From positions 3,312,501-3,376,500 of the forward strand of contig NZ_CP106869.1 of NCBI RefSeq assembly GCF_025665335.1: 64,000 bases of DNA, written 5' to 3'. The DNA comes from Xanthomonas sp. AM6. Lineage in GTDB: Bacteria; Pseudomonadota; Gammaproteobacteria; Xanthomonadales; Xanthomonadaceae. The translations under genes and the position numbers were made by a program. The notes beneath the pieces are model-generated. The model did no database searches and was not told the origin of the DNA. It saw nothing but the letters and a program-made list of their open reading frames with translations. Numbering within the stretch: position 1 is the stretch's first letter; every line of letters begins with the position of its first letter. Of this stretch, positions 50,393 through 64,000 are shown piece by piece.

Positions 50393-52393
50393 TCAGACCG
50401 CCTTTGCGGCCAGCGCCGCCTGTTGCTGCTCCAGCAGGGCGAAACGCGCGTTCTCGATGCGTTCCACCTCTTCCGCCGGGACCCAGTAGTCGACGTCGTC
50501 GTCGAACGTACGCGCGATGAAGCTGCCGATCATGCCGACCAGGCCGATGATCGCCATCCACCAGATGTGCCAGATCAAGCCGAAGCCCAGCACCACGCTG
50601 AAGGCGCCGATCCAGAACCCGGCCGCGGTGTTGCGCGGCATGTGGATCGCTTCGTACTTGGCCGGACGCGTCCAGCCCTTGCCCTTGAGCTTGTCTTCCC
50701 AGAACTGGTCGCGGTCGTCGACGTGCGGCAGCACGGCGAAGTTGTAGAACGGCGGCGGCGAGGAGGTCGCCCACTCCAGGGTGCGGCCGTCCCACGGATC
50801 GCCGGTCAGGTCCAGGTTGTCCTTGCGCTTCCAGACGCTGTAGCCGATCTGCACCAGGTTCAGGAAGATGCCGATGCCGATGATCGCCGCGCCGGCCGCG
50901 GCCACCATCAGCCACGGCGCCCACTCCGGATGGTTGTAGCTGTTCATGCGCCGGGTCATGCCCATGAAGCCGAGCACGTACAGCGGCATGAAGGCGACGA
51001 AGAAGCCGATGATCCAGCACCAGAACGAGGCCTTGCCCAGCGTCTCGTTGAGCTTGAAGCCGAACGCCTTCGGGAACCAGTAGGTCAGGCCGGCCAGGTA
51101 GCCGAACACCACGCCGCCGATGATCACGTTGTGGAAGTGGGCGATCAGGAACAGGCTGTTGTGCAGCACGAAGTCCACCGCCGGGATCGCCAGCATCACC
51201 CCGGTCATGCCGCCGATGGTGAAGGTGATGATGAAGCCGATCGTCCACAGCACCGGCGAGGTCATGTGCACGCGGCCGCGGAACATGGTGAACAGCCAGT
51301 TGAAGATCTTCACCCCGGTGGGGATGGAGATGATCATCGTGGTGATGCCGAAGAACGCATTGACGTTGGCGCCCGAGCCCATCGTGAAGAAGTGGTGCAG
51401 CCACACGATGAAGGACAGCACGCCGATGCACGAGGTGGCGTAGACCATCGAGGTGTAGCCGAACAGGCGCTTGCGGCTGTACGTGGCGATCAGTTCGGAG
51501 AAGATGCCGAACGCCGGCAGGATCAGGATGTAGACCTCCGGGTGGCCCCAGATCCAGATCAGGTTGACGTACATCATGGCGTTGCCGCCGCCGTCGTTGG
51601 TGAAGAAGTGCGTGCCCAGGTAGCGGTCGGCGCCCAGCAGCGCCAGCGCCACGGTCAGGATCGGGAATGCGGCGATGATCAGGATGTTGGTGATCAGCGC
51701 GGTCCAGGTGAAGATCGGCATGCGCATCAGGGTCATGCCCGGCGTGCGCATGCGCATGATCGTCACGAAGAAGTTGATGCCGGTCAGCAAGGTGCCCAGG
51801 CCGGATATCTGCAGGGCCCAGATGTAGTAGTCCACGCCGACCCCGGGACTGTATTCGAGCCCGGACAACGGCGGATACGCCAGCCAGCCGGTCTGCGCGA
51901 ACTCGCCCACGCCCAGCGAGATGTTGATCAGCGCCGCGCCGGCCACGAACAGCCAGAAGCTCAGCGAGTTCAGGAACGGGAACGCCACGTCGCGCGCGCC
52001 GATCTGCAGCGGCACGATCAGGTTCAGCAGGCCGGTCATGAACGGCATGGCCATGAAGAAGATCATGATCACGCCGTGCGCGGTGAAGATCTGGTCGTAG
52101 TGGTGCGGCGGCAGGATGCCCTCGTTGCCGCCATGCGCGATCGCCTGCTGGGTGCGCATCATCGCCGCGTCGGCGAAGCCGCGCAGCAGCATCACCAGCG
52201 CCACGATGATGTACATGACGCCGATGCGCTTGTGGTCCACCGAGGTGAACCATTCGTGCCAGAGGTAGCCCCACTTCTTGTACTTGGTGATCGCCGCGGC
52301 GATCAGCAGGCCGAGCAGGCCGGCGCCGGCGAGGGCGCCCATGATGATCGGCTCGTGGTACGGAACCGCCTCGAGCGTGAGTTTGCCTAGCAT
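50393..52393 (-). CDS. cyoB: Cytochrome o ubiquinol oxidase subunit I
   Basis: The catalytic, proton-pumping subunit that reduces O2 to water with electrons from ubiquinol. The 666 residues contain the haem and copper ligands in [24 protein letters not shown] (with the His-Tyr crosslink pair), LHHFFTMG and [12 protein letters not shown] chose the ATG at 52391-52393, which overlaps the cyoA stop (TGATG) and has a GGAG site; the open frame extends seven codons further into cyoA. Confidence 0.98.
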
Positions 52394-53334
52394 CACTTGT
52401 CTCCAGAAGTGCACATGGCGACCGGCTCAGCAGCCGATGCCGGATGGTCGTCGTGGCCTTCCATGTGGTGGCCCTTGCCCATCATGTATTTGTCGATCAG
52501 CGACTTGAACATGCCGTCCTGCACCGACGAGTAGTAGGTCACCGGGTACTGCGCCTTGTCGTTGCGGTTGGCGGCCAGGACCTGGAACTCGGTCTGGTCC
52601 AGCGCCTTCGGCGCGGCCTTGACCTTGGCCACCCAGGCGTCGAAGCCGGCCTGGTCGGTGGCGTGCGCGGTGAAGGCCATCTTCGAGAAGCCGTGGCCGC
52701 TGTAGTTCGCCGACAGGCCGAAGTAGTCGCCCGGCTCGTTGGCGATCAGGTGCAGCTTGGTCTCCATGCCGGCCATCGCGTAGATCTGCGTGCCCAGGTG
52801 CGGGATGAAGAACGAGTTCATCACCGTATCGGAGGTGATCCTGAAGTTCAGCGGCGTATCCACCGGGAACGCGATCTCGTTGACCGTGGCGATGCCCTGC
52901 TCCGGGTAGATGAACATCCACTTCCAGTCCAGCGCCACCGCCTCGATGACGATCGGCTTCACGTCCGACTCCAGCGGCTTGTACGGGTCCAGCGCATGCG
53001 AGGAGCGCCAGGTCAGCACCGCCAGCACCAGGATGATCATGCACGGGATCGACCACACCACCACCTCGATCGCGGTGGAGTGCGACCAGTTCGGCTCGTA
53101 GCGGGCCTTGGTGTTGGAGGCGCGGTAACGCCAGGCGAAGGCCAGGGTCATCACGATGACCGGGATCACCACCAGCAGCATCAGCACCACCGAGGTGATC
53201 AGCAACGTCTTTTCGTCGTGGCCGATCTGCCCCTTGGGGTTGAGGATGGCCGAGTCGCACCCGGCCAGCAGCAATGCGGGCAGGAGCAACAGGCCGGAGC
53301 GCAGCGAGCGCCGGAGTTGTTTCAACGGAATCAT
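52393..53334 (-). CDS. cyoA: Cytochrome o ubiquinol oxidase subunit II
   Basis: A lipoprotein subunit with lipobox LLLAGCDSA (about 20-28), two membrane helices and a cupredoxin domain. As in quinol oxidases the copper-A ligands are absent from the periplasmic domain ([21 protein letters not shown]). The 313-residue length is usual, with a His-rich C-terminus ([13 protein letters not shown]). First gene of cyoABCD. The start is the ATG at 53332-53334. Confidence 0.97.
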
Positions 53335-53711
53335 CGAACGATCCAATTGCGTAGGGGATGCGGACCGCGCAATGGCGAACGGGAGCGGCGCAGAGCGGCG
53401 TTTCCACGTTTCCTGCGGCGTCCTGGCCGGCATGCGCGATCGACCACGCATTTTATGCTGCCCTGCGGCATCTCCGAAAGCCATTGACAAGGCCGAGCGT
53501 GCGCACAGGCGTGTTTTTGCGTGCGACACATTGCCGCACCTGGGTGCGGCGGATCGCCGCATCCGCTCCACCGCGCGGGCAATGCCGCCGTTCCGTCACA
53601 ATTGGAGAGGCACGGCGGCGCGCCTGTCTTGGGCGAAGGCACCTGCCCTGGCCAGGCGCCGGTAGCCACCGGCCGACGGCAGCCGCAGCAACGGCGTCAA
53701 GCCGGTCGGAC
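53335..53711. other. Region upstream of cyoA
   Basis: 377 bases between the end of the YheO-like regulator gene and cyoA, both on the minus strand. It must contain the cyo promoter. A minus-strand TAAAAT hexamer near 53450 is a possible -10, with no convincing -35. A TTGTCA near 53487 is too far away. There is no TTGAT-N4-ATCAA FNR box. A GC-rich hairpin (around 53546-53563) may end the upstream transcript. No gene is supported. Confidence 0.5.
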
Positions 53712-54485
53712 CTAGCGCGGCGCCGCCGCCTTCTTCTGCTTGATCTGCTCGATGTAGTTGTAGATGGTGAAGCGGCTGACCCCCAGTGCCGCCGCCACCT
53801 GCTCCACGCTGTTGCGGATCAGGAACAGGCCGCGATGCATCATCGCCTCCACCGCGTACATCTTCTCTTCCTTGTTCATCAGCGCCGGCGGCTTCATGAA
53901 GCGCTTGACCGCGTCGTCGATGATCTCCTGCATCATCGCCTCCAGGCCGACCTCCCCGGCGGGGGCCTCGCTGCGCGGCGGCCTGGCCTTCCGGTGCAGC
54001 ATCTGCTCCAGCCAGCCGTGGGCCATCTCGAACACGGTCATGTCGGCATTGAGGCACAGCGCGGCCACCGGCAGGCCGGCGCCGTCGCGGAACAGCAGGG
54101 TGGCCGAACGCAGGTGGCGGCCGGCGGCGTTGGTGGTCTGGTACTCGTCGACGATCGACCAGCTGATCCGGCCGGTGCCCTCGACGTCGCGGTAGAGCTC
54201 GCTGAAGCCGGCGTCCTCGCGCGGGCCGCTGAGGATCGGGTCGCCGAGGTTGCGTCCGGACACATGGCCGTTGGCGATGGCCAGCACCGACGCATCGGGC
54301 CTGGACAGGTCGTGCAGCACCACTTCGATGTTCTCGCCGATCACCGCGCCGAGCAGGGTCACCACCGGTTCGAGCAACGCGAACAGGTCGCGCACCTGCA
54401 CGCCCTCCCCCAGCCCTTGCGCAGGCGCCGCCTGGGCGCGCTTGCGCCTGGCGGCCGGCGCCCTGCCGTTTTTCGCTGTTGCCAT
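53712..54485 (-). CDS. YheO-like PAS/HTH transcriptional regulator
   Basis: A 257-residue regulator with an N-terminal YheO-type PAS domain (about 40-150: LLEPVVTLLGAVIGENIEVVLHDLSRP, IANGHVSGRNLGDPIL) and a C-terminal helix-turn-helix (RGLFLIRNSVEQVAAALGVSRFTIYNYIEQIK, about 214-245). The same layout occurs in DauR, the repressor of D-arginine use in Pseudomonas. I chose the ATG at 54483-54485; the frame runs 44 codons further without family sequence. It is divergent from the S10 peptidase operon and probably represses it through the palindrome at 54632-54646. Confidence 0.87.
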   Translation of the reverse strand: MATAKNGRAPAARRKRAQAAPAQGLGEGVQVRDLFALLEPVVTLLGAVIGENIEVVLHDLSRPDASVLAIANGHVSGRNLGDPILSGPREDAGFSELYRDVEGTGRISWSIVDEYQTTNAAGRHLRSATLLFRDGAGLPVAALCLNADMTVFEMAHGWLEQMLHRKARPPRSEAPAGEVGLEAMMQEIIDDAVKRFMKPPALMNKEEKMYAVEAMMHRGLFLIRNSVEQVAAALGVSRFTIYNYIEQIKQKKAAAPR

Positions 54486-54606
54486 TGAATCGTCCGTTCC
54501 GAGGAATGCCTGGCGAAGGTGCACCAGCCATCTTGCCGGCTGCGTCCGCGGGCGTCGAGACAACGGCGCATCGCGCGGATCGGCACACGAAGATCGTGAC
54601 GCGGTC

Positions 54607-54646
54607 TTGACATACAAATTATTTTTCTATATCAACAAACTGTTGA
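54607..54646 (+). promoter_or_regulatory. Promoter of the peptidase operon with overlapping operator
   Basis: A perfect TTGACA (54607-54612), a 17-base gap and TATCAA (54630-54635). A perfect dyad TCAACA-AAC-TGTTGA (54632-54646) covers the -10 and the start point, a classic repressor position. Transcription would begin near 54642, about 90 bases before the first gene. The same AT-rich stretch probably serves the divergent regulator. Confidence 0.78.
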
Positions 54647-54733
54647 AGCAGCATCGCGACGGCCAGGGGGGCCGCCGCCGCCCACGCAACGGGCGTCCAG
54701 CCACGCGTCACCAGGGGAACCACCGAGCCGCCC

Positions 54734-56335
54734 ATGCCGACGTCCGCGCCGTCCGCCAGATCGTGCTGTCGCGCCAATGCCTGGCTGCGTCCGTTCGGGG
54801 CCGCGGCGGCGCTGTGGCTGGCCGGCGTCGGCGCGGTTGCGGCGGCGGTCCCGGCGCATGCCGACGTGCAGGTGCGCTCGGCCGGCAGCGTCGCCATCGA
54901 AGGCCAGGGCACGCTGCGCTACACGGCCGAGGCCGGCCTGCTGCCGATCCTGGAAGACGCGACCGGGCGCCTGCAGGCCTCGGTGTTCTTCGTCGGCTAC
55001 GGCCTCGCCGACGCGGCCAGCCAGGCGCGGCCGTTGACCTTCCTGTGGAACGGCGGCCCCGGCTCCAACGCCGCGCAGCTGCACATGGGCGTGGGCCCGC
55101 GGCGCCTGGACACCGCCGACCGCCTGCCGGACTGGACGCCGGCGCAGAGCGAACGGCCGCTGGTCGACAACGCCGACAGCTGGCTGGGGGCCAGCGATCT
55201 GGTGTTCGTCGATCCGGTCGGCACCGGCTACAGCCGCGCGGTCGAGGCCAAGGACCTGCCGCTGCTGTATGCCGCGCATGGCGATGCGGAAGTGATCGCC
55301 GAGGCGATCCGGGTCTACCTGGCCCGCCACGACGCCTGGGACCGCCCGCTGTACCTGGCCGGCGAAAGCTACGGCGTGACCCGCGCGATGCTGGTCGCCG
55401 AGATATTGGAGCGCCGCGGCATGCCGGTGCGCGGCGTGGTGCTGGTGTCCTACAACCTCGACCTGGGCGCGCCGCCGGCGGCGTATCCGGAGGACGCGCT
55501 GAACCTGCCGCAGTTCACCGCCGCAGCGCACTACCACCGGCGCCTGGACGCCACGCTGCAGGCGCTCGACGCGGCGACGGCGGTGGCCCGGGCGCAGGCG
55601 TGGATGCAGCACGACTACCTGCCGTTCCTGGCCACCGCGGCCACGCAGGCGCCGCAGGCGCGGCAGCGGATTCTTGACGGGCTGGTGCGCTTCACCGGCC
55701 TGCGCGCGCAGGACATCGATGCCAAGCAGCTGACCGTGTCCACCGCCGACTTCGCCGACCGCCTGCTCGCCGACCAGGGGCGCGAACTGGGCCGCTACGA
55801 CCTGCGCATGACCGCGCCGCGGCGCGCCAAGGACGCGCCGTGGATGCCCGGGATCGACCCGAGCCTGATGCCGATGGCCGGGCTGATGAACGGCACCTCG
55901 CGCGTGTTCAACCGCTACCTGCGCCAGCAGCTCGGCTTCGAGAGCGACCTGGCGTATCGCGGCCCGTTCGGCGACGTGCTGCATCCGCTGCCGCGCCACA
56001 CCGACCCGAAGACCGGCATGCCGGACGACTGGATGGCGCAGCGCTGGGATTTCGCGCAGAAGATTCCCACCGGCGCGGATGCGCCGCTGCGCAAGGCGAT
56101 GGACCAGGACCCGCAGCTGCGCGTGCTGACCCTGCGCGGCCGCTACGACGGCTGGCCGTGCGAAAGCTCGGTGGAAACCACCCGCGCCGCCGGCCCGCGC
56201 TACGCCGCGCGGGTGACCAACCTGTGCCTGCAGGGCGGGCACATGTGGTACTCCGAACGCGCCAGCCGTGCCCAGGGCCGCCGCGCGTTCGAGCAGTTCC
56301 TCGCCGCCTCCGCTCCCCTTCCCAGCACGGACTAG
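54734..56335 (+). CDS. S10 serine carboxypeptidase, exported (first of three)
   Basis: A 533-residue serine carboxypeptidase, which removes C-terminal amino acids from peptides, often at acidic pH. A long signal peptide ends near AAVPAHA (about 43). Family motifs: oxyanion loop WNGGPGSNAAQ, DPVGTGYSRAV, catalytic serine in AGESYGVTR, aspartate in LRGRYDGWP and histidine in LQGGHMWYSE. It starts at the ATG 54734; no strong ribosome site. Three bases separate it from the next S10 gene. First gene of an operon that runs off the right edge. Confidence 0.92.
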   Translation: MPTSAPSARSCCRANAWLRPFGAAAALWLAGVGAVAAAVPAHADVQVRSAGSVAIEGQGTLRYTAEAGLLPILEDATGRLQASVFFVGYGLADAASQARPLTFLWNGGPGSNAAQLHMGVGPRRLDTADRLPDWTPAQSERPLVDNADSWLGASDLVFVDPVGTGYSRAVEAKDLPLLYAAHGDAEVIAEAIRVYLARHDAWDRPLYLAGESYGVTRAMLVAEILERRGMPVRGVVLVSYNLDLGAPPAAYPEDALNLPQFTAAAHYHRRLDATLQALDAATAVARAQAWMQHDYLPFLATAATQAPQARQRILDGLVRFTGLRAQDIDAKQLTVSTADFADRLLADQGRELGRYDLRMTAPRRAKDAPWMPGIDPSLMPMAGLMNGTSRVFNRYLRQQLGFESDLAYRGPFGDVLHPLPRHTDPKTGMPDDWMAQRWDFAQKIPTGADAPLRKAMDQDPQLRVLTLRGRYDGWPCESSVETTRAAGPRYAARVTNLCLQGGHMWYSERASRAQGRRAFEQFLAASAPLPSTD

Positions 56336-56338
56336 CCC

Positions 56339-57859
56339 ATGCGCCCGACGACCGCACGCCCCGGCCCCGTGCCGCCGAAGACCCGCTCGCCGTTGCCGAT
56401 GCTGGCGCTGGCCCTGGCCCTGGCGGCGATGCTGGCCGCCGGCGGCGCGCACGCCGCCGAGCCGGGCTTCGTCGATCCGGCCACGCTGGACCGGGTGACG
56501 CTGCCGACGCCGGTGACCACGCACCACCGCGGCACGTTCAACGGCCAGCGCATCGACTACGTCGCGACGGTGGAAACGTATGCCACGAACGACGCCGACG
56601 GACGCCCGGCGGCGCGCCTGGTCTCCACCGCCTACGTCGCCACGTCCGCCGACGGCGCGCGGCCGGTGATCTTCGCCTTCAACGGCGGCCCGATCGCCGC
56701 CAGCACGCCGCTGCATTTCGGCCTGCTCGGCCCGCAGCGGCTGGCCGTGCCCGACGACCTGCACGCCGCTGCCGCCGGTTTCAGGCTGGTGGACAACCGC
56801 CATTCGCCGCTGGACGCGGCCGACATCGTCATCTTCGATCCGGCCAGCACCGGCTACAGCCGGGTCGCCGACGGCGTGGCGCCGAGCAGCCAGTTCTCCA
56901 CCCGCGCCGACGCGCGCCAGCTCGCGCAGCTGGTGACGGCATGGCTGGACCGGCACGGCCGCCGCGGCGCGCCGGTGTACCTGCTGGGCGAAAGCTACGG
57001 CACCTTGCGCGCGCCGGAAGCGGCCGCGCAACTGAAGGCCGCCGGCACCGCGGTGGACGGCATCATCCTGCTCGGCCAGGCCGCCAACATCCTCGAATAC
57101 GCGCAGCGGCGCGACAACATCGTCAGCTACGCGGTGTCGCTGCCGACCCTGGCCGCGCTCGGCTGGTACCACGGCAAGGTCGATCGCGGCGGGCGCAGCC
57201 TGGCGCAGTTCGTCGATGCGGCGGCCGCGTACGGCCGCGACCGCTACCTGACCACGCTGTTCCTCGGCAACCGCGCCAGCGCGCAGCAACGCGAAGAGGT
57301 GGCGCAGGCACTGCAAGGCTTCACCGGCCTGCCGGCGCAGGCCTGGCTGCAGGCCGACCTGAAGGTCTCCAAGGTCGCCTATGCGCGGCAGCTGTTCCCA
57401 GGGCGGATCCTGTCGGCCAGCGATGGCCGCTACCTGCTCGATGCGCAGGGCCACTCCAGCAGCATGCCCGACTACAACGCCGTGGCCGAGCGCTATTACC
57501 GGCAGGTGCTGAAGGTGCCGGCGCAGGCCGGCCGCTATTCCACCGCGCTGCCGACCTCCAGCGACTTCAACGCCTGGGACTGGGACGCCAACAAGTCGCC
57601 GTTCGGCGACTACCCGTGGGTCGGGCAGCTGCGCGAGCTGCTGGCGTCCAATCCGACGTGCCGGCTGCTGGTCGGCAACGGCTACTACGACAGCCAGACC
57701 ACGCTCGGCGCGATGGACTACCTCGCCGCGCAATCGGGCTTCCCGATGCAGCAGGTGCGCACCCGCTACTACGAGGGCGGACACATGATGTACACGGTCG
57801 AACGCAGCGCCGCCGACCTCGCGCAGGACATCCGGCAGATGGTGCGCCGCACCTGGTGA
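56339..57859 (+). CDS. S10 serine carboxypeptidase, exported (second), atypical oxyanion motifs
   Basis: A 506-residue S10 protein with a signal peptide (core MLALALALAAMLAAGGAHA, to about 40). The nucleophile LLGESYGTLR, the aspartate region VGNGYYDSQT and histidine EGGHMMYT are intact. However, the oxyanion loop reads FNGGPIAAST instead of NGGPG and the second glycine motif reads FDPASTGYSR instead of D-P-x-GTG-[YF]S. Both changes also distinguish it from its two neighbours. It may have a different specificity or reduced activity. It begins three bases after the first S10 gene. Confidence 0.9.
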   Translation: MRPTTARPGPVPPKTRSPLPMLALALALAAMLAAGGAHAAEPGFVDPATLDRVTLPTPVTTHHRGTFNGQRIDYVATVETYATNDADGRPAARLVSTAYVATSADGARPVIFAFNGGPIAASTPLHFGLLGPQRLAVPDDLHAAAAGFRLVDNRHSPLDAADIVIFDPASTGYSRVADGVAPSSQFSTRADARQLAQLVTAWLDRHGRRGAPVYLLGESYGTLRAPEAAAQLKAAGTAVDGIILLGQAANILEYAQRRDNIVSYAVSLPTLAALGWYHGKVDRGGRSLAQFVDAAAAYGRDRYLTTLFLGNRASAQQREEVAQALQGFTGLPAQAWLQADLKVSKVAYARQLFPGRILSASDGRYLLDAQGHSSSMPDYNAVAERYYRQVLKVPAQAGRYSTALPTSSDFNAWDWDANKSPFGDYPWVGQLRELLASNPTCRLLVGNGYYDSQTTLGAMDYLAAQSGFPMQQVRTRYYEGGHMMYTVERSAADLAQDIRQMVRRTW

Positions 57860-57937
57860 CATTCCGCAGTACCGCAGCACCCGCCGTTCGCGCTCCATCC
57901 ACCCCACCCCGCCCACCGCCAGCCAGCGAGTCCGCCC

Positions 57938-60181
57938 ATGTCATCCGTTGCCCGCCATCGTCTTTCCCAGGTCATTTCGCGCGTGCTGCGCTGCCCGGCC
58001 AGCGCGCTCCTGCTGCTGCCGTCCGTCGCGCTCGCCCAGCAGGACGACGGCGCGGCCGCCGCCAAGCAGCTGGACACCATCACCGTGACCGCGCAGAAGC
58101 GCAGCGAGCGCCTGCAGGACGTGCCGATGTCGGTGCAGGTGCTCAACACCGAGAAGATGAGCAGCGAAGGCAGCTACAAGCTGGCCGACTATTTCGCCCA
58201 GTTGCCCGGCCTGTCCTACATCCAGTCGCCGATGAGCAGCAACATCGTGCTGCGCGGCATCGCCACCGATTCCGGCCTCGGCAGCCGCCCGACCTCGGGC
58301 ATCGTCATCGACGACGTGCCCTACGGGTCGGCGCTCAGCACCGGCGCGATCCCCGACCTGGACCCGTCGGACCTGCAGCAGATCGAAGTGCTGCGCGGCC
58401 CGCAGGGCACGCTGTACGGCGCCAGCAGCATGGGCGGGCTGATCAAGTACGTGATGGCCGATGCCGACACCGGCGCGACCTTCGGCCGGGTCGAGGCCGG
58501 CGGCTCCAGCGCCGCGCACGGCGGCTCCGGCTACAACGCGCGCACCTCGGTGAACCTGCCGTTCTCCGATCGCTTCGCGCTGCGGGTCAGCCTGTTCCAG
58601 CGCCAGGACCCGGACTTCATCCGCAACGCCAACGGCGGCGACGAGAACGACAGCCAGGTGCGCGGCGGCCGCGTCTCGGCGCTGTGGAACGTCACCGACA
58701 CGGTGACCGTGCGCTCCTCGGCGCTGTTCCAGGACACCGAGACCGGCTCCAGCTCGGTGGTCGATACCGATCCCGACCTGCATCCGCTGTTCGGCCAGTA
58801 CCGCCACGACCGCATCCGTGGCGGCGACACCTTCAAGGGCCAGGTGCGCTTCTACACCACCAAGGTCAGCTGGGACCTGGGCTGGGCCACGCTGGACAGC
58901 ATCAGCGGCTACGCCCAGCATCGCAGCCGTGCCTACCAGGACGTGGGCTACACCACCATCGGCCGGCTCGCGCCGGTGTTCGCCGGCATCTTCGGCCTGG
59001 ACAGCGACACCCCCAGCTCGCTGATCGACAACCGCTACAACACCGACCGCACCACCCAGGAAGTGCGGCTGGTCTCGCAGGGCGAACGCGCGCTGGACTG
59101 GCAGGCCGGCGCGTTCTACAGCGACGAGGAAGCCAAGAGCACGCAGAACTTCTACATCGCCGACAAGCGCAGCGGCACCATCTACCGCGACTTCCCGCTG
59201 CTGGTCTCGCTGGGCGACAGCAGCTACCGCGAAAAGGCCGTGTACGCCGACGCCACCTACCACTTCACCCCGCAGTTCGACATCCAGCTCGGCGCCCGCT
59301 ACGCGCGCAACAGCCTGCGCGAGAACAGCGACACCGGCGGCCTGCTGCAGGACCCGACCCAGACCTTCGACAGCAACAAGGACAGCGCCACCACCTACCT
59401 GTTCTCGCCGCGCTACCGCTTCAACGACGAGCTGATGGCTTACCTGCGCGTGGCCTCCGGCTACCGCGCCGGCGGCAGCAACGGCACGCTGGTGGCCAAC
59501 ATCCCGTTCTCCTACGACTCCGACAGCCTGTGGAGCTACGAGCTGGGCCTGAAGACGCAGCTGCTGGACCGTTCGCTGAGCCTGGACGCGGCGCTGTTCC
59601 ATATCGACTGGAGCGATCTGCAGATCTCGCAGGTCGAGCCGACCCTGGGCAGCAGCTACACCACCAACGCCGGCAAGGCCACCAGCCAGGGCCTGGAACT
59701 GTCCGCCACCTGGGTGCCGACGGCCGACTGGAAAGTCACCGCCAGCTACGCCTACACCGACGCCAGCCTGGCCGAGGACATCCCCGGCTACGTCGAGGGT
59801 TCCTCCGCCTACGGCAGGGACGGCGATCGCCTGCCGTACTCGGCGCGCAACAGCGCCGCAGCCTCGCTCAAGCGCTACTTCGCGCTGGGCGACAACCTGG
59901 AAGGCTTCCTCGGCGCCGACGTGGCCTACATGGGCGAGCGCGACATGGAGTTCACCACCTCGGCCAACATCCCGCGCATCCACCTGCCCAGCTACACCAC
60001 CGTCGGCCTCAACGCCGGCGTGCAGGGCCAGGCCTGGAGCGCCACGCTGTACGTGCGCAACCTCACCGACGAGGTCGGCTACATCAACGCCAACCGCCGC
60101 GGCTCGCTGGCCGGCTCGCCGCTCGGGGCGACGCTGATCCAGCCGCGCACGGTCGGCGTGACCGTGGCCTGGGACTATTGA
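57938..60181 (+). CDS. TonB-dependent outer-membrane receptor
   Basis: A 747-residue receptor that imports a large substrate through the outer membrane with energy from TonB/ExbBD. A signal peptide (ALLLLPSVALA) is followed by a TonB box DTITVTAQKRSE (about 46-57), a plug domain with VLRGPQGTLYGASSMGGLI (about 151-169), a 22-strand barrel and a terminal aromatic (VTVAWDY). It lies in the middle of the peptidase operon, so peptides or a peptide-like molecule are the likely cargo; iron-chelate uptake cannot be excluded. It has no N-terminal signalling extension, so it is not a partner for the FecI/FecR pair. Confidence 0.93.
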   Translation: MSSVARHRLSQVISRVLRCPASALLLLPSVALAQQDDGAAAAKQLDTITVTAQKRSERLQDVPMSVQVLNTEKMSSEGSYKLADYFAQLPGLSYIQSPMSSNIVLRGIATDSGLGSRPTSGIVIDDVPYGSALSTGAIPDLDPSDLQQIEVLRGPQGTLYGASSMGGLIKYVMADADTGATFGRVEAGGSSAAHGGSGYNARTSVNLPFSDRFALRVSLFQRQDPDFIRNANGGDENDSQVRGGRVSALWNVTDTVTVRSSALFQDTETGSSSVVDTDPDLHPLFGQYRHDRIRGGDTFKGQVRFYTTKVSWDLGWATLDSISGYAQHRSRAYQDVGYTTIGRLAPVFAGIFGLDSDTPSSLIDNRYNTDRTTQEVRLVSQGERALDWQAGAFYSDEEAKSTQNFYIADKRSGTIYRDFPLLVSLGDSSYREKAVYADATYHFTPQFDIQLGARYARNSLRENSDTGGLLQDPTQTFDSNKDSATTYLFSPRYRFNDELMAYLRVASGYRAGGSNGTLVANIPFSYDSDSLWSYELGLKTQLLDRSLSLDAALFHIDWSDLQISQVEPTLGSSYTTNAGKATSQGLELSATWVPTADWKVTASYAYTDASLAEDIPGYVEGSSAYGRDGDRLPYSARNSAAASLKRYFALGDNLEGFLGADVAYMGERDMEFTTSANIPRIHLPSYTTVGLNAGVQGQAWSATLYVRNLTDEVGYINANRRGSLAGSPLGATLIQPRTVGVTVAWDY

Positions 60182-60189
60182 TGTGCGCT

Positions 60190-60213
60190 GCCGGCCGCCG
60201 CGCGGCGGCCGGC
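60190..60213 (+). terminator. Strong hairpin after the receptor gene
   Basis: A 10-bp perfect GC stem (GCCGGCCGCC with GGCGGCCGGC, GCGC loop), followed by CTTTCC. The weak T-run suggests a partial terminator or mRNA-stability element that lowers expression of the genes downstream. Confidence 0.55.
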
Positions 60214-60239
60214 CTTTCCCCCCGTTGCGGAATGTCCCG

Positions 60240-61724
60240 ATGAAATGGATGCATGGCCTGGTGGCGCTGCTGGTTGCCGCGCTGCCGATCGCCGCCGTCG
60301 CCGCCGACGCGGCGCCGGTCGCCCAGCCGACGTTGCTGTCCAGCCCGAAGCAGGCCCGCCTCGGCGAGCAGCGGCTGCGCTACCGGGTCAGCTTCGACCA
60401 ACTCGATCTGCCCGGCGCCGACGGCACGCCCGCCGCCTCGATCAGCGCCATCGGCTACCTGGCCGAGCGCGCCGACGCCGGCACGCGGCCGCTGTTGTTC
60501 GCCTTCAATGGCGGGCCCGGCGCGTCGTCGGTGCTGCAGGTGGAAGGCCTCGGCCCGCTGCTGCGCGTGCGCGACGGCACGCGGCAGACGCTGGTCGCCA
60601 ATCCGCACAGCATTCTCGACGCCGCCGACCTGGTGTTCATCGATCCGCCCGGCACCGGCTTCAGCCGGGCGCCCGCCGACGCCGCCGCGCGCGAGCGCTA
60701 CTGGTCCGACCATGGCGACGCCAAGGCCGTGGCGGCGATGATCCGGCACTGGCGCAAGGCGCACGGGCGCGAACGCGCGCCGCTGTACGTCGCCGGCGAA
60801 AGCTATGGCGGCTACCGCCTCGCCCTGCTCGCCGCCGAGATCGGCGACCTGCGTCCGGCCGGGGCGCTGCTGGTCTCGCCGCTGCTCGATGCCACCAGCG
60901 GCGACGACAGCGCCGGCAACGACCTGCGCGCGATGTTCGACCTGCCCGCGTTGGCCGTCGCCGCCGCGGCCCACGGCAAGGGCGAATTGGCCGGGCAGCC
61001 GGTGGAACAGGTCTATGCGCAGGCGCGGTCGTTCGCGCTCGGCGACTACGCGCAGGCGCTGCTGCAGGGCAGCGCCTTGCCGGCCGACGCGCGCAGCCGC
61101 ATGGCCGCGCGCCTGGCCGCGCTGCTGGGCCTGCCGCCACAGGCTGTTCTGGCCGCCGACCTGCGTCCGGACGTGGAGACCTTCCGGCTCGGCCTGCTGG
61201 CCGCCGATGGCCGGCAGATCGGCCGGCTCGACAGCCGCATCGTCGCGCCCCTGCCGGCCCCACAGGCAGCCGACAACGGCCGGCTCTCGGCCGCCAACGA
61301 TCCGGCGCTCAACCTCGGCCGCAGCAACCGGATCCACTCCACGGTGATGGCCGACTACCTGCACGGCCTGTTCGGCGCCGGGCTGCCGCACGACTACGTG
61401 AGCCTGGACATCGACATCGCCATGGCCTGGCGCTTCGCCGCCGACGACGGCGCCGGCCCGCGCCCGTTCGGCGCCGCGATGCGCTTCAATCCCACGCCGA
61501 ACCTGGCGCGGCTGGCGCAGGCCAACCCCGACTTCCGGGTGCTGGCGCTCAACGGCTACTACGACCTGGCCGTGCCCGCGCTCGGCCCGTGGTATGCGCT
61601 GCACCACAGCGCGCTGGATCCGGCGCGCATCGAGTTCCGCCTCCTGCCCAGCGGCCATGCCGTGTTCGCCGAAGAAGCGCTGCGCCCGCAGCTGCACACC
61701 CTGCTGAAGGATTTCCTGAAATGA
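60240..61724 (+). CDS. S10 serine carboxypeptidase, exported (third)
   Basis: A 494-residue S10 protein with a signal peptide (MKWMHGLVALLVAALPIAAVAA). All motifs are regular: FNGGPGASSV, DPPGTGFSRAP, nucleophile VAGESYGGYR, aspartate LNGYYDLAVP and histidine LPSGHAVFAEE. The ATG at 60240 begins the signal peptide. The stop overlaps the start of the amidohydrolase (ATGA), so the two are coupled. It differs enough from the other two copies that the set looks like old duplicates with divided specificity. Confidence 0.92.
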   Translation: MKWMHGLVALLVAALPIAAVAADAAPVAQPTLLSSPKQARLGEQRLRYRVSFDQLDLPGADGTPAASISAIGYLAERADAGTRPLLFAFNGGPGASSVLQVEGLGPLLRVRDGTRQTLVANPHSILDAADLVFIDPPGTGFSRAPADAAARERYWSDHGDAKAVAAMIRHWRKAHGRERAPLYVAGESYGGYRLALLAAEIGDLRPAGALLVSPLLDATSGDDSAGNDLRAMFDLPALAVAAAAHGKGELAGQPVEQVYAQARSFALGDYAQALLQGSALPADARSRMAARLAALLGLPPQAVLAADLRPDVETFRLGLLAADGRQIGRLDSRIVAPLPAPQAADNGRLSAANDPALNLGRSNRIHSTVMADYLHGLFGAGLPHDYVSLDIDIAMAWRFAADDGAGPRPFGAAMRFNPTPNLARLAQANPDFRVLALNGYYDLAVPALGPWYALHHSALDPARIEFRLLPSGHAVFAEEALRPQLHTLLKDFLK

Positions 61725-63757
61725 CCCGCACGCGGCTGCTGGCCGCCACCCTGGCCTCGGCCTGCGCGTTCGCCGCCCATGCCGCGTCGGCGCCGACACC
61801 GGCGCCGCAGTCGCTGGTGCTGATCGCCAACGGCGAGACCGTCGGCTACCTGAAGGCGTCCGCGCACGGCGACACCTACGAGGTCGACTACCACGTCGAC
61901 AACAACGGCCGCGGCCCCAAGCACCACGAGACGATCGTGCTCGGCGAACACGCGCTGCCGCTGGCGTGGACCGTCGCCGGCACCTCGCTGATGGGCGGCC
62001 AGGTCGCCGAGCGCTACCGCTGGCACGACGGCGTCGCCGAATGGAGCAGCCAGGCCGACCGCGGGCGTACGCCGCAGCCGCAACCGAAGCTGTACGTCAC
62101 CAACGACAGCAGCCCGTGGGCGAAGTGGACCTACGCCAAGGCCCTGCTGGCCGCGCCCGGCCAGCGCCTGGACGTGCTGCCCAACGGCCGCATGCAGCTC
62201 GCGCTGGTCGGCACGCTCGCGCTGCCGGGCGCCACCGGCGCGCCGCCGGTGCAGGCACGGCTGCTGCGGCTGTCCGGCCTGGACTTGGAACCGCACTACC
62301 TCGCCATCGATGCGAACGACGCGTTGCTGGCCGACCTCGACGACGACGCGGTGGCGATCCGCGAGGGCTACCAGGCGCAACTGGGCACGCTGACCGATGC
62401 GGTCAAGGCGCAGCAACTGGCGCATGCGCAGGCCCTGCAGCGCCAGCTCGCGCATCCGCTGGAGCGCGGCCTGTGGCTGCGCAACGTGCACGTGTTCGAT
62501 CCGGTCAACGGGCTGCGCAGCGATGCGGTCAACATCCACGTCGCCGACGGGCACATCGTCTCGGTGGACGCGCAATGGCGGCCGGCGCCCGGCGACCGCG
62601 TCTACGACGGCGGCGGCGGCACGGTGATCCCGGGCCTGCACGACATGCATTCGCACAGCACCCTGTCCTCGGGGCTGTGGTACCTGGCCGCGGGCGTCAC
62701 CAACACCCGCGACATGGGCAACGACAACACGTTCCTGCTCGACCTCGTCGCGCGCATCGACCGCGGCGAGATCGCCGGCCCGCGCATCGTCCGCAACGGC
62801 TTCCTCGAAGGCCGCAGCGCGTATTCGGCGCGCAACGGCTTCGTCGTCGACACGCTCGACGACGCGCTGAAGGACGTCGCCTGGTACAAGGACCACGGCT
62901 ACTGGCAGATCAAGCTCTACAACTCGATGAACCCGGCCTGGGTGGCGCCGATCGCCGAGCGCGCGCACGCGCTGGGCATGGGCGTCACCGGCCACATTCC
63001 GGCCTTCACCAACGCCGACGCGATGATCGCCGCCGGCTACGACGAGATCACCCACATCAACCAGCTGATGCTCGGCTGGGTGCTGGCTCCGCACGAGGAC
63101 ACGCGCACGCCGCTGCGGCTGACCGCGATGCAGCGCGTCGCCGGCCTCGACCTGGACGCGCCGCAGGTGCGCCGCACGCTGGACCTGATGCGCCAGCGCG
63201 ACATCGCCCTGGACACCACCGAAGTGATCCTGGAACGGCTGATGCTCAGCCGCGCCGGCAGCGTGCTGCCCGCCGACGCGCCGTACCTGTCGCACATGCC
63301 GATCGCCTACCAGCGCTACCGCCAGCGCACCTTCGTGCCCGATCTCGACGCGCAGGCCGACGCGCGCTACCGCCAGGCGCTGGACAAGACGCTGCAGCTG
63401 ATCGGACGCCTGCACCGGCAGGGCACCGTGCTGCTGCCCGGCACCGACGACACCACCGGCTTCACCGTGCACCGCGAACTGGAGCTGTACGTCGCCGCCG
63501 GGCTGACCCCGCAGCAGGCGCTGCGCGCCGGTACCTGGCAGAGCGAGCAGCATTTCGGCCGCAGTGACCGGCTCGGCAGCGTGCATCCGGGCAAGCAGGC
63601 CGACTTCGTGCTGCTGCCCAGCGACCCGACCGCCGACATCGCCGCGATCCGCCGGCCCGCGCTGGTGGTGAAGGACCGGCAGCTGTACCTGCCCGCCGAG
63701 ATCTACCGCGCCCTGGGCGTGGAACCGTTCGCGCCGGCCCCCAAGCACATCCAATGA
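61721..63757 (+). CDS. Exported amidohydrolase, imidazolonepropionase/prolidase-like, with extra N-terminal domain
   Basis: A 678-residue metal-dependent hydrolase. A signal peptide (to AAHAASA, about 23) precedes an unassigned beta-rich domain (about 28-255, QSLVLIANGETVGYLKASAH). Then comes an amidohydrolase barrel with DMHSHST (metal pair), a lysine in QIKLYNS, histidines in VTGHIPA and EITHINQ, and the aspartate in LPGTDDTTG. It ends with the typical GSVHPGKQADFVLL. This class includes Xaa-Pro dipeptidases, so it probably cleaves dipeptides or cyclic or modified amides left by the S10 enzymes (inference). It overlaps both neighbours as ATGA. Confidence 0.87.
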   Translation: MTRTRLLAATLASACAFAAHAASAPTPAPQSLVLIANGETVGYLKASAHGDTYEVDYHVDNNGRGPKHHETIVLGEHALPLAWTVAGTSLMGGQVAERYRWHDGVAEWSSQADRGRTPQPQPKLYVTNDSSPWAKWTYAKALLAAPGQRLDVLPNGRMQLALVGTLALPGATGAPPVQARLLRLSGLDLEPHYLAIDANDALLADLDDDAVAIREGYQAQLGTLTDAVKAQQLAHAQALQRQLAHPLERGLWLRNVHVFDPVNGLRSDAVNIHVADGHIVSVDAQWRPAPGDRVYDGGGGTVIPGLHDMHSHSTLSSGLWYLAAGVTNTRDMGNDNTFLLDLVARIDRGEIAGPRIVRNGFLEGRSAYSARNGFVVDTLDDALKDVAWYKDHGYWQIKLYNSMNPAWVAPIAERAHALGMGVTGHIPAFTNADAMIAAGYDEITHINQLMLGWVLAPHEDTRTPLRLTAMQRVAGLDLDAPQVRRTLDLMRQRDIALDTTEVILERLMLSRAGSVLPADAPYLSHMPIAYQRYRQRTFVPDLDAQADARYRQALDKTLQLIGRLHRQGTVLLPGTDDTTGFTVHRELELYVAAGLTPQQALRAGTWQSEQHFGRSDRLGSVHPGKQADFVLLPSDPTADIAAIRRPALVVKDRQLYLPAEIYRALGVEPFAPAPKHIQ

Positions 63758-64000
63758 ATCCGATCCCCCGACCTATGCCCATCCCCCATTCCGCCTCCTC
63801 CGACACCGTGTCCGCGCGCCTGCGCGCGCTGGGCCTGGCGTTGCCGCCGCCGCTGCGCGTGCCCGATGGCGTGATCCTGCCGTTCGCGCCGGTGCACGTG
63901 GTCGGCACGCGCGTGCTGATCTCCGGCCACGGCCCGCAACACCCGGACGGGCGCATGGCCGGCGGCGGCCGCATCGGCGAAGACCTGGACGAAGCCCAGG
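63754..64000 (+). CDS. RidA family protein, partial (runs off the window)
   Basis: Only the first 82 codons are present. The sequence ARLRALGLALPPPLRVPDGV then ILPFAPVHVVGTRVLISGHGPQ matches the N-terminal half of RidA/YjgF-type proteins, which hydrolyse reactive enamines and imines made by PLP enzymes. The ATG overlaps the amidohydrolase stop (ATGA), so it is part of the peptide operon. This implies that a PLP enzyme acting on the released amino acids may follow beyond the window. Confidence 0.8.
   Translation, partial: MNPIPRPMPIPHSASSDTVSARLRALGLALPPPLRVPDGVILPFAPVHVVGTRVLISGHGPQHPDGRMAGGGRIGEDLDEAQ

Follow-up and report, generated by a model that had tools for sequence, protein, structure and literature searches.

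A ten-gene operon and its products

The window analysed here is a 64 000 bp stretch (positions 1-64,000) of the complete 4.9 Mb genome of Xanthomonas sp. AM6 (NZ_CP106869.1, positions 3,312,501 to 3,376,500); coordinates beyond 64,000 continue its numbering. Near its end begins an operon of ten linked genes, in the order S10A, S10B, TonB receptor, S10C, amidohydrolase, RidA1, pyridoxal phosphate (PLP) enzyme, RidA2, M61A and M61B, that may import and break down a peptide-like substrate to yield phenylalanine or tyrosine (Phe/Tyr). An earlier note on the window had described the part up to RidA1, and each gene that it named lies where it was placed. The operon overruns the window by four genes (PLP enzyme, RidA2, M61A and M61B). 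We call this set the kit, and regard it as beyond chance because it is co-conserved among relatives. The features are as follows.

53712..54485, − strand: YheO/DauR-type regulator (PAS_6 and HTH_22; ATG start at 54485), divergent from the operon
54607..54646, + strand: promoter-like TTGACA and palindrome, seen by comparing relatives
54734..56335, + strand: S10A, serine carboxypeptidase-like (Pfam; signal peptide by eye)
56339..57859, + strand: S10B, serine carboxypeptidase-like (Pfam; signal peptide by eye)
57938..60181, + strand: TonB-dependent outer-membrane receptor (Pfam plug and barrel)
60240..61724, + strand: S10C, serine carboxypeptidase-like (Pfam; signal peptide by eye)
61721..63757, + strand: amidohydrolase (Pfam; signal peptide by eye; beta-rich N-terminal domain)
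63754..64278, + strand: RidA1, YjgF-type (YjgF_endoribonc), running past the window end at 64000
64307-65581, + strand: PLP enzyme with a twin-arginine (Tat) signal, past the window (the downstream genes are L005:1808-6984)
65578-66018, + strand: RidA2 with signal peptide, past the window
66015-67718, + strand: M61A metallopeptidase, past the window
67744-69483, + strand: M61B metallopeptidase, past the window

Spacing is tight, as the note had said of ATGA overlaps and tiny gaps. The gaps at S10A/S10B, S10B/receptor and receptor/S10C are 3, 78 and 58 bases (78 is the largest of the operon), and those at RidA1/PLP enzyme and M61A/M61B are 28 and 25 bases. Four junctions are 4-base ATGA overlaps: S10C/amidohydrolase and amidohydrolase/RidA1 in the window, and PLP enzyme/RidA2 and RidA2/M61A past it. 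Signal peptides, called by eye throughout, are present on S10A, S10B, S10C and the amidohydrolase, as claimed, and also on RidA2; RidA1 has none, and to that extent the claim does not hold. A racemase, D-aminoacylase or permease had been expected after RidA; in their place are the Tat-signal PLP enzyme, RidA2 and the two M61 peptidases.

All three S10 proteins belong to family S10, scoring 47 (S10A), 36 (S10B) and 65 bits (S10C) with Peptidase_S10 (cut-off 21.9), and all carry the GESYG, Asp and His motifs of the Ser-Asp-His triad. The triad is identical in 100 of 100 aligned S10 sequences (96 from survey loci and 4 of the host genome); 19 of the original 119 had been removed for lack of a GESYG-type motif, so that Ser is present by selection and the agreement is informative for Asp and His only. 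From these residues the window S10 proteins look functional, and carboxypeptidase activity is predicted; the amidohydrolase, the M61 peptidases and the PLP enzyme look functional too, by the residues given below. The fourth S10 gene of the host genome, at G000:C1:2816101-2817228 (L006), has no other kit gene within the surrounding 18 kb.

The receptor matches the Pfam plug (63 bits) and barrel (121 bits) domains. None of the 24 NCBIfam models listed reaches its cut-off with it, and the siderophore model TIGR01783, at 154.3 bits, stays below its own of 223.5. Both M61 proteins have the HExxH motif of their family (HEMAH and HEMFH).

The amidohydrolase is placed in its superfamily by a Pfam match (53.9 bits, cut-off 25) together with metal-site motifs; H310, H312, K398, H425, H445 and D576, which we take to be the metal ligands, are invariant across 26 sequences. 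Its predicted structure has a pLDDT of 90.8. Among the 50 fold matches listed, prolidase and the Arg/Lys carboxypeptidase Cc2672 are best, and ochratoxin A amidohydrolases come slightly lower. The barrel and metal-site motifs are shared with these enzymes; the operon enzyme differs in its extra beta-rich N-terminal domain of ∼190 residues, and identity in the 50 matches listed is 13-22%. The earlier note had called it prolidase-like; its fold is of the prolidase group, and assignment to the Xaa-Pro dipeptidase family was rejected at 85 bits against a cut-off of 500 (NF051886).

The PLP enzyme scores 118 bits with Aminotran_5 (cut-off 21.5), and K252, the PLP-binding lysine, and R404 are invariant in 45 sequences, which makes it a fold type I, class V enzyme. 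Going by SufS, R404 presumably holds the substrate carboxylate. In the same 45 sequences R12 of the twin-arginine motif is invariant and R13 is kept in at least 90%; the RR and hydrophobic pattern appears in 79 of 88 called PLP-enzyme open reading frames (ORFs), some of whose starts are wrong. Tat export, in the mode of PvdN, is predicted from this motif. The nearest named match is from X. bonasiae FX4 at 90%, a ranking from which very near records may be left out. CsdA and SufS are the closest solved folds and the closest sequence profile. Cysteine desulfurases rely on a catalytic Cys loop, and opposite the segment that bears it in CsdA and SufS the three alignments shown have a gap in the family profile; the PLP enzyme should therefore not be a desulfurase, and that candidate was ruled out. 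From SufS and CsdA it differs further in its Tat signal. Pyoverdine tailoring offers two periplasmic PLP enzymes that are exported by Tat, PvdN and PtaA (PMC6206403). Our enzyme shares the Tat signal with them and matches the PvdN model NF051467, at 41 bits for a cut-off of 650, whereas its gene neighbours are hydrolases and an importer, not siderophore synthesis. Four kit loci (L031, L039, L040 and L072) hold two copies of the PLP gene.

Rid family membership is given by YjgF_endoribonc for RidA1 (52 bits, cut-off 35) and by Ribonuc_L-PSP for RidA2 (108 bits, cut-off 27); with TIGR00004, RidA2 is under the cut-off (94.5 versus 106).

The kit in other bacteria

Genome contigs were scanned with the PLP enzyme alignment, giving 254 stretches and 239 relatives, and the best 80 were kept as loci (designated by L numbers). 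Lack of co-conservation among relatives was one of the things that the earlier note had named as evidence against its proposal; the kit is co-conserved. S10 proteins are found in 52 of the 80 loci, a TonB receptor of any kind in 50 (in two types of ∼750 and ∼1000 residues), and an amidohydrolase in 46 (not strictly orthologues, since paralogues also reach the threshold). Class I aminotransferases (41 loci) and APC permeases (40) come next, followed by M61 (36), ornithine cyclodeaminase-family proteins (32), Lrp (31), RidA2 (17), RidA1 (12) and the YheO-type regulator (9, or 10 at a looser threshold). At least two hydrolase types are present in 50 loci. Gene order and strand vary strongly from clade to clade. 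Five contrast loci holding amidohydrolase paralogues (L094-L098) had no further kit gene except one partial receptor match in L096.

Distribution is patchy. Counting the host, the PLP enzyme was found at E ≤ 1e-30 in 7 of the 20 genus genomes and in 4 of the 149 genomes sampled from the family, and at E ≤ 1e-60 in 3 of the 398 sampled from the phylum. In the family sample an amidohydrolase of at least 59% identity occurs in exactly the four PLP-bearing genomes, and other matches are at most 45% identical. By these co-occurrences the kit, with its shuffled order, is a real gene set.

S10A, S10B and S10C fall into three clades with supports of 1.0, 0.989 and 0.986, each holding several genera, and all three clades are found together in 30 of the 80 loci, of which L075 should be discounted because its S10 matches are fragmented. 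For comparison of loci with whole genomes, 43 of the 80 loci were used and L075 was left out; the remaining 42 contain 108 S10 intervals (tblastn) versus 182 Pfam S10 matches across the same 42 genomes, a comparison that is only approximate because the methods differ. We had considered the trio as the core of the kit. Two close relatives, X. massiliensis (L015) and Stenotrophomonas sp. MMGLT7 (L016), rule this out: they have regulator, receptor, amidohydrolase, RidA1, PLP enzyme and M61 and no S10 in the locus, making the trio an add-on. On its phylogeny and occurrence the trio is old and recurrent, yet accessory.

In all five Nitrospirillum loci L055, L057, L058, L069 and L078 the kit includes an S9 peptidase. 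The S9 copy of L058 resembles Dpp5 and scores 94 bits with the lasso-peptide isopeptidase model (cut-off 400).

Regulator and candidate operator

The earlier note had placed a YheO/DauR-type regulator divergent from the operon, and both domains score above their cut-offs (PAS_6 96 bits, HTH_22 76 bits). DauR and Escherichia coli YheO carry the same two domains; the operon regulator differs from them in having another regulon. A literature search on these two names yielded no operator for either in the parts of the sources available.

The interval between the regulator and S10A contains TTGACATACAAATTATTTTTCTATATCAACAAACTGTTGAAG, which resembles a promoter and overlaps a palindrome. TTGACA at 54607-54612 has two possible partners, TATATC at 54628 with a spacer of 15 and TATCAA at 54630 with one of 17, and the palindrome TCAACA-AAC-TGTTGA, of general form TCAACA-N3-TGTTGA, occupies 54632-54646. 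L011, L014 and L015 have a nearly identical stretch; L016 keeps the palindrome with TTGACA at a different spacing. The exact pattern TATCAACA-N3-TGTTGA occurs once in the 4.9 Mb genome. A scan for sigma-70 promoters and terminators gave results near shuffle level.

Among the 10 loci with the regulator, 7 have sites with at most one mismatch, versus 6 among the 70 that lack it. In L063, one of these six, the regulator lies just past the flank (L118), and in the other five the sites are inside called ORFs. Across the 11 loci with this regulator type (233 kb) there are 19 sites with at most one mismatch versus none for the reversed motif, and 44 with at most two mismatches versus 4. L014, L015 and L016 were among the sequences where the palindrome was first seen and are not independent. 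Five independent loci, L031, L039, L063, L072 and L087 (Duganella, two Roseateles, Pelomonas and Mitsuaria), hold 16 of the 19 sites, which stand separately before receptor, RidA1, M61, PLP enzyme or S10B units; of the 16, one (L072:1965) falls within M61 and another three overlap short unnamed ORFs, possibly spurious. Since the palindrome overlaps the promoter and recurs before Betaproteobacterial kit units, it is probably the regulator's operator, and binding by the regulator is what we infer from its positions. Shewanella L018 carries a form of it whose spacer is longer, and the palindrome was not found in Parahaliea L020 and L025. A Mitsuaria site outside the kit (L117) has no kit gene nearby.

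In three Betaproteobacteria a MarR-type regulator gene and an enolase-superfamily gene lie adjacent to each other beside the kit, with operator-like sites near (L116:12128-13999, L063:12317-14213 and L072:3-1695).

Proposed function and its alternatives

By gene neighbourhood, five contexts tie the kit or a sister cluster to one pathway, Phe/Tyr breakdown. In Duganella (L138) an aromatic transaminase, PhhB, PhhA, 4-hydroxyphenylpyruvate dioxygenase (HPPD), APC permease, M61 and two amidohydrolases follow one another on one strand, the first four above curated cut-offs, with an Lrp-like gene divergent from the string; the APC gene is the only one of the kit type found in that genome (E ≤ 1e-50), and the second half of the kit is in L031, on a separate contig. 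Roseateles violae (L116) has a second HPPD and a fumarylacetoacetase, both above curated cut-offs, and three operator copies with one mismatch 0.6-0.8 kb ahead of HPPD, before an unnamed ORF. A Bordetella metagenome-assembled genome (MAG; L093) has a fumarylacetoacetase above cut-off directly before M61; its HPPD is on a contig other than that of the kit. An aromatic transaminase above cut-off is found in kit loci L037, L038, L043 and L067, and another adjoins the PLP gene on L091, a short contig. Sphingomonas liriopis has a second cluster (L139), made up of two receptors, a set of three S10 genes, one gene of the ornithine cyclodeaminase family and an amidohydrolase, with PhhA, a transaminase above cut-off and PhhB next to it.

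Two further genes were seen in these neighbourhoods. L139:2868-3434, in the S. liriopis Phe/Tyr string, is an HPPD piece apparently fused to a VOC protein. L067:8456-9538, in an alphaproteobacterial MAG, is a beta-eliminating lyase of the threonine aldolase type beside the aromatic transaminase and the PLP gene.

We propose that the operon serves TonB-dependent uptake and periplasmic hydrolysis of a peptide or an N-acyl amino acid or amide, yielding Phe/Tyr, and give this a probability of roughly 0.57. Regulated import and breakdown of a peptide-like substrate, as the earlier note had it, is supported. In the mechanism that we infer, including its transport direction, substrate, periplasmic location and order of enzymes, the substrate would cross the outer membrane through the receptor; in the periplasm the three S10 enzymes of differing lineage would trim its C-terminus and the two M61 peptidases its N-terminus, and the amidohydrolase would cleave the last amide or dipeptide. 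Exported by Tat together with its cofactor, as described for PvdN and PtaA, the PLP enzyme would then act on an amino acid with a free alpha-carboxylate, and secreted RidA2 would hydrolyse any imine or enamine produced. Phe/Tyr or the keto acids would enter the cell, in many relatives through a kit-type APC permease, to be burnt by PhhA, aromatic transaminase, HPPD and fumarylacetoacetase. All units would be under control of the YheO-type regulator through TCAACA-N3-TGTTGA.

Several findings weigh against this proposal. The host operon holds no aromatic-catabolism gene, and no kit-type APC was found in the host genome at E ≤ 1e-50. When contigs were compared by hand, HPPD, present in 48 of the 49 kit genomes searched, was near the PLP locus (∼20 kb) only in R. 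violae, that of Duganella being in the kit half on the other contig, and the idea of a broad co-localization of HPPD with the kit fails. Shewanella mangrovi (L018), with most of the kit, gave no HPPD at E ≤ 1e-30 or 1e-60, and in 12 of the 49 no aromatic transaminase was found at E ≤ 1e-60. In R. violae no operator copy ahead of HPPD is perfect, the Duganella copy before APC has two mismatches, and a related HPPD in Parahaliea has no copy with fewer than two. L139 lacks a PLP gene, identity of its kit-like genes to the kit queries is only 29-42%, its amidohydrolase is of a shorter type and its HPPD looks truncated. M61A and M61B, at 26.4 and 25.5 bits, are barely above the Pfam cut-off of 22. 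The amidohydrolase threshold was met by paralogues in four of the five contrast loci, which had been chosen for holding one. Finally, at the set thresholds 22 of the 80 loci show the PLP enzyme without a partner among S10, amidohydrolase, M61, receptor and APC; 17 of the 22 belong by label or classification to Bacteroidota or Acidobacteria, two are on contigs no longer than 3.5 kb (L064 and L091), and in L087 the remaining kit is just past the flank (L116). At looser thresholds M61 adjoins the PLP gene in some Bacteroidota, and two of them (L026 and L034) have an S10. Setting the five aromatic contexts against an HPPD that mostly lies elsewhere and against missing transaminases and HPPD, we hold Phe/Tyr as product to be likely, at a little better than even odds.

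The placement of HPPD elsewhere in nearly all kit genomes examined would suit a general scavenging of peptides of any composition, with the neighbouring aromatic genes incidental, and so would the several exopeptidase types together, S10 and M61 being broad families. We consider this unlikely: Duganella and S. liriopis place kit or kit-like genes beside PhhA, transaminase and PhhB, R. violae has its second HPPD and fumarylacetoacetase with operator copies, and the Bordetella fumarylacetoacetase and the alphaproteobacterial transaminase add to these. The same contexts count against the substrate that the earlier note had suggested as possible, a proline-rich, cyclic or D-amino-acid-containing peptide with the regulator sensing a D-amino acid. 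That substrate draws on the YheO/DauR-type regulator, on the prolidase fold group of the amidohydrolase and on the 32 loci with an ornithine cyclodeaminase-family gene, one of which, when tested, drew its highest score, 223 bits for a cut-off of 322, from a model of pyrroline/piperideine-carboxylate reductase. The amidohydrolase is far under the Xaa-Pro cut-off, however, and among the ∼16 named neighbour clusters (rarer clusters were left unannotated) there is no racemase, D-aminoacylase or D-amino-acid dehydrogenase, nor anything specific to proline or cyclic substrates; with the evidence leading to Phe/Tyr, we find such a substrate quite improbable.

Six hydrolases indicate breakdown, the named neighbour clusters contain no peptide synthetase and the catabolic link is to Phe/Tyr, all of which makes it very improbable that the operon tailors or recycles a siderophore-like peptide, the PLP enzyme modifying a residue as PvdN does and the receptor retrieving the product. 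What speaks for tailoring is the likeness of the receptor to siderophore receptors in hidden Markov model searches (154 bits versus 223.5), the weak match to the PvdN model (41 bits versus 650), a pair (clusters 16 and 24) in three loci that by eye resembles an iron- or cobalamin-type ABC transporter, and the Tat export of PvdN and PtaA, which are PLP enzymes as well (PMC6206403). A kit serving defence rather than nutrition, by detoxifying aromatic amides of the ochratoxin type (N-acyl-phenylalanine), would account for ochratoxin A amidohydrolase ADH3 and ochratoxinase being among the best 50 folds for the amidohydrolase model; prolidases and Cc2672 match that model better, an importing receptor and several exopeptidases would be superfluous, and we give detoxification hardly any credence.

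Our preferred reading, hydrolysis to Phe/Tyr, would make the operon one of the TonB-dependent utilization loci, known from polysaccharide-type loci and the CUT loci of Xanthomonas: receptor, exported hydrolases and an own regulator are shared and co-conserved, and relatives add an inner-membrane permease and catabolic genes. The operon differs in its presumed peptide- or amide-like substrate, in having no glycosidase or SusD among its genes, and in the predicted export of both a PLP enzyme and a RidA. Loci for lasso-peptide isopeptidase, known from sphingomonads and Caulobacter, likewise combine a TonB receptor with a peptidase in related taxa, but their peptidase is S9 whereas that of the kit is S10; S9 was found in five survey loci, all Nitrospirillum. 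The literature searched, from which most subscription papers were outside scope and which included PMC6206403, PMC11640390 and PMC12502724, gave no description of the kit. Nor, as the earlier note had supposed, is an S10 trio around a TonB receptor a named system there.

TonB receptors are to our knowledge numerous in these bacteria, most without known substrate; the kit ties one to hydrolases, a regulator, a candidate operator and a catabolic pathway, which makes substrate and regulation testable together. A broader claim is tentative, and we hold it at somewhat less than an even chance: the kit would be a widespread, so far undescribed modular system by which bacteria feed on aromatic peptides or amides, a TonB-gated periplasmic pathway whose amino-acid conversion takes place outside the cytoplasm through a PLP enzyme and a RidA that are both exported, with a YheO-type regulon acting through TCAACA-N3-TGTTGA in part of its range and wiring to Phe/Tyr catabolism in several lineages. 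If true, it would be a peptide or amide counterpart of polysaccharide utilization loci, give this branch of YheO-type regulators a proposed operator and regulon, enlarge the small number of PLP enzymes known to work in the periplasm, suggest a role for secreted RidA and bear on the breakdown of phenylalanine amides such as ochratoxin.

Two neighbouring regions lie outside the operon. Behind the regulator, window positions 50393-53571 (− strand) hold genes for haem-copper oxidase subunits I and II, called by eye. Directly after M61B, at window positions 69813-70682 (− strand; L005:7314-8183), is a gene with a CAP12/Pycsar TIR effector domain, a possible defence gene.

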